A DNA stretch of 55,931 nucleotides, from positions 1 to 55,931 of IMG/VR virus record IMGVR_UViG_3300031918_000032; one strand, written 5' to 3'. The stretch is from a virus. The number at the start of each line of letters is the position of its first letter. Positions within the stretch are counted from its first letter, which is position 1. Shown in pieces: positions 322-55,326 of this stretch. A program made the position numbers and the translations under genes. Below the pieces are notes generated by a model. That model made no database searches. It had not been told where the DNA came from and worked only from the letters and a program-made list of their open reading frames with translations.

Positions 322-693
322 ATGTTTACATTATCTGAAATAGCAACCGTCAACGATAAGATTTCGAAAGCCTGGATATTCTCAACCGGTGTAGAAGTTC
401 AGTTTCCATTTAACAAGGAACATTATTATTTCGTTCCTGAAGCTGAAGGAACCGGAGACTATACCCCTGAATTGATCCGTGGCGGTGTTAGGATGCTTAG
501 AGCTGGCAATTGTATTGCCTGTAATATATGGAGTGTCTCGAAAGAATGCCTATACCTAATTGTATCGTTCATGCGTCGGAGGTTAATGGTGGATAACGAG
601 TATGTGGTGGTTGTCATTGAATCAACTGGCGAAACATTAGAGTTTAACTCATTCAAAGATATTTGTCAGTATTTTAACCTTAAATTTAACTAA
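322..693 (+). CDS. Hypothetical protein
   Basis: A 123-residue protein that I do not recognise. An in-frame ATG at 244 exists, but it lies in AT-rich sequence upstream of the putative -7 element at 256-263, and the coding look begins at MFTLSEIATVND. The middle holds two Cys (NCIACN) and an MRRRL patch, and the C-terminus is hydrophobic/acidic. It is the first of three closely spaced plus-strand genes (322, 696, 864) that converge on the minus-strand fibre gene. Confidence 0.6.
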   Translation: MFTLSEIATVNDKISKAWIFSTGVEVQFPFNKEHYYFVPEAEGTGDYTPELIRGGVRMLRAGNCIACNIWSVSKECLYLIVSFMRRRLMVDNEYVVVVIESTGETLEFNSFKDICQYFNLKFN

Positions 694-695
694 TT

Positions 696-860
696 ATGAA
701 AATGTCAATATTGCGCGAAAGTGTACTTTTTGAAACAGGTGGTGAAGGCGAAAGATGGGAGTTGTTTGTGTTTGCTACGTTCTGTTATTACGGCGTGTTG
801 CCAGCTCATTCTATTGAGCATGATTTCGATGTTACAGTAGATTTCTTTAAATTGTTCTAA
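696..860 (+). CDS. Small hypothetical protein (54 aa)
   Basis: It starts MKMSILRESVLFETGGEGER and ends DFFKLF. It begins 2 bases after the preceding stop and ends 3 bases before the next start, so the three genes look like one transcript. The central part is hydrophobic and aromatic (LFVFATFCYYG). No family recognised. Confidence 0.55.
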   Translation: MKMSILRESVLFETGGEGERWELFVFATFCYYGVLPAHSIEHDFDVTVDFFKLF

Positions 861-1664: not shown

Positions 1665-2617
1665 GGTATATACTGTATAGTTACCCAACCTCTATTGTAC
1701 GAAGTTGAATCAAAAGATGTAGAATCGAAGTACATTCCACTTTCTCTAGCTAATGCAATATTACTAGAATCAAGAAGTGACACTCCATTTATATATCCTG
1801 CTGATTTATAACTTCCTTCTGAAGATCCTATACTTACATTTAAATTAAGATATTCTGAATCATCATCACTTCTAACTATACAAGATATACTTCTAATTTT
1901 TTTATAATTAGATATTCCGTGTGCTACTGCCTTAGTGCTTGTAGAATCCATATTCCAATCACCAATATTTACAATTTTAGTCAATAATACATCTCCTAAA
2001 TCTTCAGACACCAACCCAGTACTCCCAACTTTTACGGTTTGGCCGGGGGTTAGGGTGGATTGAATATTAGGAATTTCATTAACAGTTATACCAATAAACG
2101 CTCCAGATTCTACTTCCCCATCTGTATTTATTGCTACTAATGCAGAATTATCCCAAGAAGGCCCTATTACTGGCACTTTGCCTATAGTAGATCCTTTCAT
2201 ACTGGTCATATTAAATCTATACTGATTCATAGCCCCCACAAACTGTGGCATACCTCCAACAACCGAATTACTCGCAATAGCATAATATACCCGATACGAA
2301 TTGTAAGCATTTCCGTCGCTATTAATCTTTGAGTACTCATCAACCAAGGAAGGCGCTAAATACTGATTTTCGGCCAATCCAGTGGCGCACAAATAAACAA
2401 CACCATTCATATAAACCACCCCGGCATTATAGGTATGGGCTCCACTATTGTAATCTAACCCTCGAAGTATCGCGAAGCCGTTGGAAGGTAAACCAAGGAT
2501 CAAATTAATCGCTTCATTCAGATTTTGAGTTGAATTCTGAATATCTGATACGAATAACGGATTACCTAAACCTACGTTTACAAGTCTATCGTTTGGGAAT
2601 GGAATTTTAGTTGACAT
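1661..2617 (-). CDS. Putative tail fibre / baseplate-distal protein
   Basis: A 318-residue protein starting STKIPFPNDRLVNVGLGNP. It is the last gene of the virion operon, immediately after the baseplate genes, where fibres usually lie. The N-terminal third looks like a baseplate-attachment region (short helical segment followed by GFAILRGLDYN). The C-terminal part is rich in Ser, Thr, Asp and beta-strand residues, as in receptor-binding domains. Assignment is from position and composition; no catalytic motif is visible. Confidence 0.55.
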   Translation of the reverse strand: MSTKIPFPNDRLVNVGLGNPLFVSDIQNSTQNLNEAINLILGLPSNGFAILRGLDYNSGAHTYNAGVVYMNGVVYLCATGLAENQYLAPSLVDEYSKINSDGNAYNSYRVYYAIASNSVVGGMPQFVGAMNQYRFNMTSMKGSTIGKVPVIGPSWDNSALVAINTDGEVESGAFIGITVNEIPNIQSTLTPGQTVKVGSTGLVSEDLGDVLLTKIVNIGDWNMDSTSTKAVAHGISNYKKIRSISCIVRSDDDSEYLNLNVSIGSSEGSYKSAGYINGVSLLDSSNIALARESGMYFDSTSFDSTSYNRGWVTIQYIP

Positions 2618-29848: not shown

Positions 29849-30507
29849 GTAGGCTGCCGTGAGGCTATTGCCTCACGGTGAACCTCTCACACCACGCAGC
29901 GTACGGGTCTCGTACTGCGCGGTTCGTTAGGTACCAGCACCATTGCTCTTTACACCAATGATACCTCTGTCTTTATTTAGGATAAGGCTAGCAAACTCGA
30001 AGTTTGAACCTCCTTATCGAATTGGAGACAACCTAACGTTCAGCCCTTCTCCCCTGGTAGTATCTGAATATTCTTTGTCGGGTAGCCCGGCTAATACGGT
30101 TCGCTTGTACGCCACGATCACACCTTTCGGTTTATACTTATTCAGACTTGCCAATGATTACTATGGCTTCTGCTGACCTCTGTATGCCTAGTAGAACGAA
30201 ACTAGATACAGATCTCCCCCGGTAAGAGCTTTTCCCTTCTGTCTATTCCTGTCGGATCTACATACCTGCCCTTTTGTATTCTTAGGGCTTCACAAAGATG
30301 TGCTTGCTCACCCAGACAAATATGCCTCCTATCCGCCGGACTGGGACCACATAGTAGCTCCTCCCAGTCCTACCTGTTCGTCAGTACAGACTTTTGCCGT
30401 TTGGCTGCCTTCAGTGCTTACCTCACGATAAACCACCTGGCCACTTGCTAATGCTTTGGACACGACTCCACGCATAAGGGACTTGCACCCTCTGGAAAAA
30501 TACACAC
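29849..30507 (-). mobile_element. Group II intron without an ORF
   Basis: Minus strand. The 5' end GTGTGTATTTTTCC at 30507 fits GUGYG. Domain I shows the typical GGGTGCAAGTCCC. Domain V lies near 29885-29930 with a paired CCGCGCAG / CTGCGTGG stem, a two-base bulge and an upper stem, followed by GGTGTGAGAGG. Domain VI (CCGTGAGG/CCTCACGG) comes next and the intron ends near CCTAC (29849) or CTCGAT a few bases on. No reverse transcriptase/maturase frame is present, so splicing would need a host protein or be self-catalysed. Boundaries are uncertain by some bases, or by 100 at the 5' side. Confidence 0.75.
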
Positions 30508-33834: not shown

Positions 33835-34212
33835 CTAAATAAATATTTGTCCAATCCTATTTGCTTCCATCTTCATTGAGTTTATTCTTTCTGATAACTT
33901 AGTAGCATATTCCAATGAATACGTATTATCATAATAAGTAATCTCTCTGGTTTTAGGAAATGAAACTTTACATATATATCTAACATTCCTGTCACCTTGT
34001 TGATTTGATTCTTCATACGGATCAATAATTTCAGCAATCCTAGGCATAGGGTAAAATTTAATATCGTTATGCTTATATAGTAATATTAATATAACTTTTT
34101 TATATGAAACCCATCCCAATATGTCAAATGCCATTAATTGGTGTTGATTGGCTACTAAAACCTGACTCATTATAGAGTTGGTTATTTTAATTTTCTTTAG
34201 TTCTACTATCAT
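33835..34212 (-). CDS. Hypothetical protein with structured RNA leader (125 aa)
   Basis: Not recognised. MIVELKKIKITNSIMSQVLV, then FYPMPRIAEIIDPYEE and a helical C-terminus. It is directly preceded by the kissing-loop RNA element at 34222-34330 (promoter at 34338-34345). Confidence 0.55.
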   Translation of the reverse strand: MIVELKKIKITNSIMSQVLVANQHQLMAFDILGWVSYKKVILILLYKHNDIKFYPMPRIAEIIDPYEESNQQGDRNVRYICKVSFPKTREITYYDNTYSLEYATKLSERINSMKMEANRIGQIFI

Positions 34213-34221
34213 GGCTTTAAA

Positions 34222-34330
34222 ATAAAAAACCCGTCTTAGTTATCCTTTCATCTGTGTGCGCAGAATCCAGGTACTAAAACGGGTTGGTTTTTATTAATTC
34301 TGTCATTGGCCGCACAACCGATCACAGAAT
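34222..34330 (-). ncRNA. Kissing-loop leader RNA 1
   Basis: Minus strand. 5' hairpin: ATTCTGT/ACAGAAT outer stem and an inner stem, loop TTGTGCGG (34310-34317). 3' hairpin: AACCCGT.. stem (34273-34285 with 34228-34240), an inner TCTG/CAGA stem with loop CGCACA (34255-34260), then a run of T. Loop 1 TGTGCG is complementary to loop 2 CGCACA. A G-U in the long stem occurs only if the minus strand is the RNA. Just upstream of the 34212 start. Confidence 0.6.
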
Positions 34331-34337
34331 TGCATTA

Positions 34338-34345
34338 CAAAGATA
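34338..34345 (-). promoter_or_regulatory. -7 element for kissing-loop RNA 1
   Basis: Minus strand TATCTTTG. It lies 8 bases before the first hairpin. There is no good TTG at 19-20 bases. Confidence 0.45.
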
Positions 34346-34489: not shown

Positions 34490-36684
34490 TAGAATAATTT
34501 CAACTGCCCTTTTTCTTCCATCGCAGCCGTATGATTGCGCTTATTCAATTCAAAGTAACTTTCTTTAAGCTCTATTGAAATAGATTTACGTCCCATCTTC
34601 AATGCCTGGTAGCCTTCTGATCCAATACCGCCGAATGGACTGAATACTGTTTCGCCTTCGTTGGAGTATAGTAATATAATACGCTCAATGGTATCAAGCT
34701 GTAAAGGGCAAATATGTTTTTCATCTTCATTTGCCCGACCTTCGCGATAGTTAAGGGTACGCGAATAATCGATGTCATACCATACCGGCGAAGCAATTTT
34801 TTGCCACAAATCAACGGGTATATGGGTATTAGTTATCGGTACTTCATTATCTCCGGCGTTACGGAAAAACAAAATGTAATCCGGAATGCCTACGCGCGAC
34901 ATTGAACTGTCTTTCTTAACTTGCTTGTGAAGTAATCCTAGTGCTTTGGTACGTTGCATCTCAATAACCGGGTCTTTCCAAATGGTTGCGCGGCTATGGT
35001 AAATAAATCCGCAATCTTGAAACCATTTAACCAACATGCCTGAAAAATCTCTTAACCCAATATATCCTTCTTTGCCTTTTTGGATTGGCAAATCCATGCA
35101 ATGAACCGCGCATATTCTGCCAGGTTTCAAGATCCTGGCAAGTTCAGGTATTAAGAATTTGAAATGTTGCTCGAATTGATCGTAATTAAGCGAATTACCC
35201 ATATCTTCCACGTGGTTTGAATATGTGTATAATTCTGAGAATGGAGGCGAAAATACGACCAAATCGGCTTCGTTTTTTTTTAACTCTTTTGATTTCTGGA
35301 CACAATCACCATTCATCAAATGGTACGTGTCGTTTTTAATATCGGTTGATTCCATTGAAAAATTAGTTATTAAGTTGTTAATATTTTTGTTAACCGCCTT
35401 AGTCATCTCAAGTTGCATATTTCTAAATGACGCATGTTTATCTTTCTGAATTTTCAAGACATTTATCATTCTGTCGGTGGAAATCATCCAACATGTGACC
35501 TTTCTTTTTTGCCCAAATCGCCAACTTCTACGCATTGCCTGGTATGATTTTTCAAAACTAAAGTCTATAGAATTAAAAATCTGATAGCAACAATTTTGAT
35601 AATTCATTCCTTGGCTGGCAATAGATTCTTTTGTGATTAGTATTTTAAAGTCACCATGCGCGAACCCCAAAAGATCGGTTTCTTTTTTCTCATTAGAATC
35701 GGAACCCTGAACATTTCGACAATCAAACCCAAGTAATTTAAGATGATTGTAAATGTTCTTTGCCTCTTCATTTTGCTTTGTCCAAATTATTATTGACTCA
35801 GCGAATCCAATGCTTTTTACGATCTCGGTTGTTTGCCAGATACGCTCTTTTTCTGTTTCGCGAAGACTTGAATTGTAATCGGTTGCATTTACAGCTAAAC
35901 CAGAAAACAACATCCCTTCTGGTAGTTCTGTTTTTACCTGCTTTTCGATTATTTCAAGTTCTGGCAAATCGAATCCTGTCATATCGAATCCTATATCCCG
36001 CGGGTGAGAATACATAATCGCCCACGTGCTTACAAATTCGTAAAATTTACTTACAGAATGACCTTTTAACCTCCATTTTTGAGTCTCTCCGGCATCGTGG
36101 ACAAAGAACATAGCTAGCATTTCAGTGAAGCTCATAACGTCCAAAAATTCGGAATGATTACCTAATTCCATTGGGTCGTTAGGGGATGGAGTAGCGGAAA
36201 AACAAAACTTATACGGAGTAGTTTTGAAAGTATCGATAAGTAATGTTCTGTATTTCCCGGTTTCATTCTTTAAAATAGAGCTTTCATCCAAAATTATACA
36301 CCCATACTTAGAACAATCAATATTTTCGACTTGCTCATAATTGGCTATTTGAATTAAGCTCGTATGGTTGTTAATTATTGCGCGTTCGACCATATACCCA
36401 AACTCAACACCTTTCTCAATTGTCTGGCCGGTTACTGCCAACGGTGCCAATATTAACGATGGTTTACCGGTATGTTTTGATACTTGATCGGCAATATCTA
36501 ATTGCATAGGAGTTTTACCGGTTCCTGTATCGCCAAAAATAGCGTACTTACCAGCCTTCAATGCTCGTTTATTGACAAACTTTTGAAATTCGAAAAGCTT
36601 TGGGTTTAATTGTGATTCGTCAATATCGAACCCGGATAAGATTACTTGCTTTTCTTTTTGCTTTAAAAAATCTACATACTCCAT
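34489..36684 (-). CDS. Helicase-DNA methyltransferase fusion
   Basis: A 731-residue protein. Residues 1-430 form an SF2 (SNF2-like) helicase: GDTGTGKTPMQLDIA (Walker A, about 51-65), IILDESS, SATPSPNDP and a C-lobe with ITKESIASQGMNYQNC. From about 450 comes a methyltransferase: VVFSPPFSELY (about 476-486, catalytic SPPF in place of DPPY) and a SAM site FSPFGGIGSEG (about 681-691). The order puts it among beta-class N4/N6 enzymes. Likely modifies phage DNA or translocates and modifies; the specificity is unknown. The 5' end is preceded by a kissing-loop RNA and promoter (36701-36791). Confidence 0.8.
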   Translation of the reverse strand: MEYVDFLKQKEKQVILSGFDIDESQLNPKLFEFQKFVNKRALKAGKYAIFGDTGTGKTPMQLDIADQVSKHTGKPSLILAPLAVTGQTIEKGVEFGYMVERAIINNHTSLIQIANYEQVENIDCSKYGCIILDESSILKNETGKYRTLLIDTFKTTPYKFCFSATPSPNDPMELGNHSEFLDVMSFTEMLAMFFVHDAGETQKWRLKGHSVSKFYEFVSTWAIMYSHPRDIGFDMTGFDLPELEIIEKQVKTELPEGMLFSGLAVNATDYNSSLRETEKERIWQTTEIVKSIGFAESIIIWTKQNEEAKNIYNHLKLLGFDCRNVQGSDSNEKKETDLLGFAHGDFKILITKESIASQGMNYQNCCYQIFNSIDFSFEKSYQAMRRSWRFGQKRKVTCWMISTDRMINVLKIQKDKHASFRNMQLEMTKAVNKNINNLITNFSMESTDIKNDTYHLMNGDCVQKSKELKKNEADLVVFSPPFSELYTYSNHVEDMGNSLNYDQFEQHFKFLIPELARILKPGRICAVHCMDLPIQKGKEGYIGLRDFSGMLVKWFQDCGFIYHSRATIWKDPVIEMQRTKALGLLHKQVKKDSSMSRVGIPDYILFFRNAGDNEVPITNTHIPVDLWQKIASPVWYDIDYSRTLNYREGRANEDEKHICPLQLDTIERIILLYSNEGETVFSPFGGIGSEGYQALKMGRKSISIELKESYFELNKRNHTAAMEEKGQLKLF

Positions 36685-36700
36685 AATTAGTTAAAATTAA

Positions 36701-36779
36701 AAACCCCGAATCAAGGCTCTCACACACTTGACCGGGGTTTATGGTTATAAAACCAATTTCTTTACCGGTGAGAGTCGGT
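36701..36779 (-). ncRNA. Kissing-loop leader RNA 2
   Basis: Minus strand. First hairpin ACCG-ACTCTCAC-CGGT (36779-36764). Linker with TTGGTTTTATAACCAT. Second hairpin AAACCCCG... (36740-36727 with 36715-36701), loop TGTGTGAGAGC (36726-36716), then T-run. Loop 1 CTCTCAC pairs with loop 2 GTGAGAG (7 bp). The linker resembles that of RNA 3 (ATGGTT..A.ACCAAT.TCTTTAC on the plus strand). Confidence 0.7.
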
Positions 36780-36783
36780 AGAA

Positions 36784-36791
36784 CAAATGTA
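36784..36791 (-). promoter_or_regulatory. -7 element for kissing-loop RNA 2
   Basis: Minus strand TACATTTG, five bases before the first hairpin. The upstream TTG element is weak. Confidence 0.5.
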
Positions 36792-54638: not shown

Positions 54639-55195
54639 CTTAATATTGGCAAGCTGTAATCGTATTTGACAAATCCATGCTTTTTAACAATTGTCAATAT
54701 GTCTTTACTCCCAAGATCAAACCATTCACCTCGTATTCTATTTTTAGAATATTGTTTATGTAGTACCATTTCAATATCCAGGTCTAAGTAAAATAGTGTT
54801 TTTATTTTAGGTATTTGACCCGATAATGTTTTTTCTCTAAATTTAACATTCCCAGATTTACCAATCTTATATAATTTAGATATTTCATCATACATTATAT
54901 ATGTTTTATACTGAATGTCCTTTTTATGAAAATGCATATTATTTATAGCATCAATGAACAGATTAGTTATTTTTTCATTACATATAATTTTATTTGTAAT
55001 TACATTAACATATTCTTCAGTTATATACACATACGAACTAATTAATTCCGATTTATTCCAATCTGCATTTATAAAAAAGTTATCTTGAATGTGAAAATAT
55101 TCTTCCTTACCTATGACTATGTTTTCCTTAACATCTGATTTAACATACTCAGATAATAATACCTTAACCGAATCAATCCTTTTTACTATATTCAT
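54635..55195 (-). CDS. GIY-YIG (T5orf172 / MUG113-like) protein
   Basis: A 186-residue protein. C-terminal domain: YIMYDEISKLYKIGKSGNVK, FREKTLSGQIPKIKTLFYLD, then LHKQYSKNRIRGEWFDLGSK. The order Y-x-M...YKIG-S...R...TL...LH..F...GEWF is that of the T5orf172 GIY-YIG nuclease family. The N-terminal 95 residues are not recognised. Preceded by kissing-loop RNA 3 and a full promoter. Confidence 0.75.
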   Translation of the reverse strand: MNIVKRIDSVKVLLSEYVKSDVKENIVIGKEEYFHIQDNFFINADWNKSELISSYVYITEEYVNVITNKIICNEKITNLFIDAINNMHFHKKDIQYKTYIMYDEISKLYKIGKSGNVKFREKTLSGQIPKIKTLFYLDLDIEMVLHKQYSKNRIRGEWFDLGSKDILTIVKKHGFVKYDYSLPILR

Positions 55196-55208: not shown

Positions 55209-55291
55209 AAAACCCCGTCCAGTGATGCGAGGCACTGAACAGGGTTTTATGGTTTTTACACCAATATCTTTACGTGTTCTCGCATAAACAC
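55209..55291 (-). ncRNA. Kissing-loop leader RNA 3
   Basis: Minus strand. First hairpin GTGTT-TATGCGAG-AACAC (55291-55274). Linker with TTGGTGTAAAAACCAT. Second hairpin: a 16-bp stem (55248-55233 with 55224-55209, G-U pairs only in minus RNA), loop CCTCGCAT (55232-55225), then TTTTT. Loop 1 ATGCGAG pairs with loop 2 CTCGCAT (7 bp). The predicted transcription start (about 55290) is at the first hairpin, and the ATG follows 14 bases later. Confidence 0.7.
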
Positions 55292-55295
55292 AATG

Positions 55296-55326
55296 CAAAG
55301 GTAAAAAATAATATTAAAAAAGCAAA
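55296..55326 (-). promoter_or_regulatory. Minus-strand Bacteroidota promoter for RNA 3
   Basis: On the minus strand: TTTG (55326-55323), 19-nt spacer, TACCTTTG (55303-55296). Divergent from the plus promoter at 55333-55364. Confidence 0.8.

Follow-up and report, generated by a model that had tools for sequence, protein, structure and literature searches.

An apparently undescribed class of kissing-loop leader RNAs in Bacteroidota phages

A class of leader RNA, in which the loops of two hairpins are complementary to each other, recurs in phages of Bacteroidota and is almost certainly real and conserved. Its members have a common structure with compensating loops, act as sense RNA, carry a U-tract behind the second hairpin and lie just ahead of a start codon; the class is apparently new to description. 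Three copies, E1 to E3, lie in the window, that is, the whole 55,931-nt stretch of IMG/VR virus record IMGVR_UViG_3300031918_000032 analyzed here. The initial annotation had read E1 as a kissing-loop leader RNA, one of three, and this reading is supported by the recurrence of the class, with compensating loops, in dozens of unrelated phages.

E1 is arranged on the minus strand in the order -7 box, P1, linker, P3, T-run and ATG (Table 1). Both hairpins, with their complementary loops TGTGCG and CGCACA, are present, and every part ascribed to them was confirmed, including the T-run that ends the second hairpin and the flanking -7 element and start codon. The upstream box matches the Bacteroidota -7 consensus TAnnTTTG. 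P3 of E1 has 20 pairs and a predicted energy of -25.4 kcal/mol (RNAfold). The same architecture with different but compensating loops, previously placed at about 36.7 and 55.2 kb, corresponds to E2 (36.8 kb) and E3 (55.3 kb), both of which have the small hairpin P2 as an extra. E1 is indeed the most divergent of the three, with a loop pairing of 6 bp vs. 7 in the others, a longer P1 that is interrupted, and a P3 that contains an internal loop. The isolated loop-loop duplexes of E1, E2 and E3 have energies of -7.6, -9.2 and -8.9 kcal/mol, respectively, and all three elements show the GC-rich stem followed by a U-tract that is the sequence criterion of an intrinsic terminator.

Table 1. Features of the three leader elements and their downstream genes, in window coordinates.
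Element	Feature	Position	Strand	Basis
E1	Whole element, ATG at 34212	34345-34212	-	
E1	-7 promoter box TATCTTTG	34338-34345	-	read from sequence
E1	Hairpin P1, loop TTGTGCGG, kissing TGTGCG (34316-34311)	34296-34331	-	sequence and detector
E1	Terminator-like hairpin P3 with internal loop, kissing CGCACA (34260-34255)	34230-34283	-	sequence, RNAfold, detector
E1	U-tract TTTTTT (34229-34224) and A/U-rich spacer toward ATG	34218-34229	-	sequence
E1	Downstream gene, 125 aa, no family match	33835-34212	-	family search
E2	Whole element, ATG at 36684; loops CTCTCAC/GTGAGAG, 7 bp	36791-36684	-	
E2	-7 box TACATTTG	36784-36791	-	sequence
E2	Hairpin P1, loop ACTCTCAC	36763-36781	-	sequence
E2	Small hairpin P2 TTGGTTTTATAACCA	36742-36756	-	identical letters in phage contig L235
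E2	Hairpin P3, loop with GTGAGAG, then TTTTT	36703-36738	-	sequence
E2	Downstream gene, helicase/DNA methyltransferase fusion, 731 aa	34489-36684	-	family search
E3	Whole element, ATG at 55195; loops ATGCGAG/CTCGCAT, 7 bp	55303-55195	-	
E3	-7 box TACCTTTG; TTTG 19 nt upstream (55326-55323)	55296-55303	-	sequence
E3	Hairpin P1, loop TATGCGAG	55274-55291	-	sequence
E3	Small hairpin P2 TTGGTGTAAAAACCA	55250-55264	-	sequence
E3	Hairpin P3, loop CCTCGCAT, then TTTTT	55211-55246	-	sequence
E3	Downstream gene, GIY-YIG-type (MUG113/T5orf172) protein, 186 aa	54635-55195	-	family search

A detector that asked for a TAnnTTTG box, P1, a T-run after P3, loops sharing 6 or more complementary bases and an ATG no more than 30 nt away returned exactly three matches in the 56-kb window, namely E1, E2 and E3; in 400 dinucleotide shuffles of the window, the mean was 0.11 matches and the largest number 2. 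All three real elements, and no shuffled match, had a P3 of -20 kcal/mol or lower. Among loci collected without prior selection on the loops, 21 elements (dereplicated) combined a strong P3 with 7 or more loop pairs, compared with 0, 1 and 0 under three controls (complement, reverse and swapped alphabet, respectively) that retained all real hairpins and promoters and altered only the pairing rule. The detector had been adjusted by eye to the earliest members, and the controls were run at identical settings.

The same anatomy with compensating loops is present in the Flavobacterium phages FCV-3 (two copies), FCL-2 and snusmum9-1 (three copies), and the anatomy is also found in Cellulophaga phage phi18:3, Bacteroides phage B40-8 and many IMG/VR contigs. 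IMG/VR was scanned with a pattern in which P1, GTAG[AGTNGNNS]CTAC, is followed by SNNCNACY, leaving three loop positions free on both sides; only these free positions count as evidence, because the other pairs are dictated by letters that the pattern fixes. Among the matches listed, all three free positions were complementary in 63 of 64 dereplicated elements, and two of the three in the remaining one. In an alignment of 57 elements among the matches listed, the loop-loop helix was 99.7% paired and strictly Watson-Crick, all four variable loop-loop pairs had changed on both sides with no one-sided changes, and the covariation score of the whole structure was 0.508, against 0.145 for shuffles and at most 0.151 for slid versions. 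The variable pairs took four Watson-Crick types at columns 8 and 11, three at column 10 and two (GC and CG) at column 12. In the outer P3, G-U cells far exceeded A-C cells among the matches listed (49 vs. 3, or 41 vs. 9 under symmetric scoring), which indicates that selection acts on the sense-strand RNA of the gene; the three apical P3 pairs had no G-U excess (2 to 7, among the matches listed). In addition, contigs with several copies carry loops that differ between copies (26 contigs, some redundant), which is suggestive of pairing in cis.

Across the class, the -7 box lies directly upstream of P1, the loop of which is mostly 7-10 nt long. The linker is A-rich and AAAAATATTA-like, with several positions at least 90% conserved, and P3 runs from an outer stem, often through an internal loop (UGAU/UGA, or AGUA/GAA, which by eye resembles loop E), to a short apical stem that carries the kissing loop. 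The U-tract was not part of the scan pattern, and T occupied positions 1-5 after P3 in 84, 92, 89, 85 and 71% of cases, respectively, among the matches listed; in one subgroup (GGGCATTAACTTTT, e.g., L237 and L238) the tract is interrupted. The ATG follows 4-24 nt past the P3 stem in the subfamily, among the matches listed.

Members of the class keep their loop pairing, and E1's own lineage yielded no homologues. Because bait, homologue and E1-specific pattern searches found no close homologue of E1 (P0001 as bait gave no relatives and the E1-specific pattern no matches), its own loop pairing rests on architecture, and its probable membership of the class rests on the shared architecture, its six loop pairs and two sisters in the same genome. 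A sequence pattern derived from E2 and E3 retrieved mostly unrelated terminators, yet it yielded L015 and L024; similarly, a loosely chosen GTAG pattern retrieved mainly unrelated DNA, but also two members on the opposite strand. The covariance model R1, which is specific for a P1 of GTAG..CTAC and covers one subfamily, had no match in the window, and E1 to E3 therefore belong to other branches. No single model of the whole class was obtained because the divergent members align poorly (MAFFT). In 148 Bacteroidota genomes, R1 gave one weak match, L353 (G013:C29:18593-18651; 33.9 bits over 59 nt), and a narrow pattern, which like R1 covers one subfamily only, matched 0 of 395 genomes.

None of the 4227 families of Rfam 15 reached its gathering threshold at E1, E2, E3 or the leaders of the tested relatives, in searches at gathering and permissive thresholds (E3 at gathering only). 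The candidates TEG147 and rli38 were far under threshold, overlapped the terminator-like hairpin and were taken as chance. No description of such an RNA was found in the open-access papers searched, and absence from Rfam and papers does not prove that nobody has seen the class.

Several other RNA elements were observed. Phage contig L254, which also bears a kissing-loop leader, carries a DUF805b RNA at 2119-2151 (-) (RF02914, 39.5 bits, over gathering), and the phage contig L308 has a weak permuted-tmRNA match at 581-749 (+), with 46.6 bits (gathering 47) and several adjoining tRNA genes. In L109 (9924-9997, +), a hairpin loop GGTGCAAGC has 9 bases complementary to those in the loop of the terminator hairpin that comes next, and a Shine-Dalgarno-like AAAGGAGG precedes an ATG in the contig; this may be an instance of the same device outside Bacteroidota, or a coincidence. 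In the window itself, positions 30227-30432 (-) match the Rfam group II intron D1-D4-3 (62.9 bits, E 2.9e-10) and contain no long minus-strand ORF; we read this as a group II intron carried by the phage, which may lack a reverse transcriptase of its own.

Among 55 downstream proteins of the subfamily, all among the matches listed, HNH_3 was found in 22, NUMOD4 in 20 and GIY-YIG in 3, and others were primases, helicases, a DNA methylase and replication-type proteins. The leaders of the window precede genes for a protein without a family match (E1), a helicase-methylase (E2) and a GIY-YIG-type protein (E3). The possibility that the leader is tied to its own gene was rejected, since helicase-methylase homologues occur both with it (L125, L015 and snusmum9-1) and without it; the homologue in L122 is 84% identical and has no leader within 150 nt upstream, and others likewise lack one.

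We read the element as a cis-acting 5' leader RNA, the transcription of which would begin a few bases upstream of P1. P1, the A-rich linker and P3 fold, and the loops of P1 and P3, whose pairing is under strong selection in the class, join in a kissing helix of 6-9 bp that may lock P3 shut. P3 may act as an intrinsic terminator and, at about 10 nt from the ATG, may also block ribosomes; by default, potentially harmful genes for DNA processing and homing endonucleases would be expressed at a low level, perhaps until a factor of the phage or host, or the timing of infection, relieves the block. Judged from sequence, we give such a kissing-locked attenuator just about an even chance. Attenuation appears to be the likeliest role because P3 has a strong U-tract behind it and lies some 10 nt ahead of the ATG. 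Against it, the interrupted U-tract of the GGGCATTAACTTTT subgroup is poor for intrinsic termination, no shared alternative antiterminator fold was seen among the members read, and the internal loops of P3 exceed the needs of a plain terminator. Leader attenuators with intrinsic terminators likewise place a terminator-like hairpin between promoter and gene, whereas here no shared antiterminator was seen and the terminator-like hairpin has its loop paired with that of a hairpin upstream. Intramolecular loop-loop pairing in a leader is also found in kissing-loop riboswitch domains such as the purine riboswitch; by contrast, no three-way junction or ligand pocket was seen here, the partner is the terminator-like hairpin itself, and for a riboswitch there is neither a candidate pocket or ligand nor a metabolite common to the downstream genes.

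Alternatively, the leader may serve translation or mRNA stability, which we consider doubtful. The kissing fold would shield the 5' end and leave the A/U-rich start region open, or block the ribosome, and the U-tract would serve initiation rather than termination. P3 does end about 10 nt before the ATG, within the ribosome footprint, and some U-tracts are interrupted, but T rather than A is favored directly past the stem, which is the signature of an intrinsic terminator, and the ATG itself lies outside the stems in the members read. Homing-endonuclease mRNAs of T4-type phages are restrained by structures at the start site, as for I-TevI, Aeh1 mobE and T4 segB, where these hold expression down (PMC3014915), and the leader is similar in placing an RNA structure at the start of a homing-endonuclease gene. 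However, those structures bury the ribosome-binding site, whereas here the AUG lies behind P3 and two hairpins kiss; unlike them, the leader also precedes other kinds of genes.

It is unlikely that the leader is an antitermination RNA, the kissing fold of which would bind the elongation complex, as with the HK022 putRNA, and let polymerase past P3 and later terminators. The element is promoter-proximal and structured, occurs in several copies per phage at different promoters, and has a conserved linker and, in some P3, the loop-E-like AGUA/GAA internal loop; but it itself ends in a U-tract, and we know of no factor or polymerase contact. To our knowledge, putRNA lacks both the loop-loop pairing and the terminal U-tract of the leader, the sequences being compared through Rfam only. 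HK022 put suppresses pausing and termination, and such cis RNAs are known in phages (PMC9378689); put resembles the leader as a promoter-proximal, cis-acting structured phage RNA. A trans-acting short RNA or RNA dimer, in which the terminated leader would pair with loops of other copies, is very improbable: complementary loops of 6-9 bases suit intermolecular kissing too, but the two loops of each copy match each other, and the differing loops of same-contig copies point to cis pairing. The c4 antisense RNA (RF01695) of phages P1/P7, which acts as antisense (PMC2864571), also exerts phage RNA control via short complementary stretches, whereas here both partners lie within one leader. A DNA-level element or chance repeat is already disfavored and hardly credible: the strictly Watson-Crick loop helix is as expected of a DNA inverted repeat, but the G-U excess in outer P3 among the matches listed, the constant order of promoter, P1, P3, U-tract and ATG, and the pairing-rule controls all speak against it.

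Returning to the attenuator, we suggest tentatively, and at somewhat less than even chances, that loop-loop pairing of a 5' hairpin with a terminator hairpin sets terminator strength, and that the leaders form a new class of phage regulatory RNA, with a private loop code per copy, that serves across Bacteroidota phages as an insertable module for genes of DNA processing and homing. Gene control at the RNA level in these phages is little known, and the class described here is widespread, at least 64 dereplicated IMG/VR elements coming from one subfamily alone, and has exceptionally clean tertiary covariation. As it occurs in the cultured phages FCL-2, FCV-3, snusmum9-1, phi18:3 and B40-8, its mechanism is directly testable, and the leader may be usable in Bacteroides and Flavobacterium as an orthogonal part for gene control.
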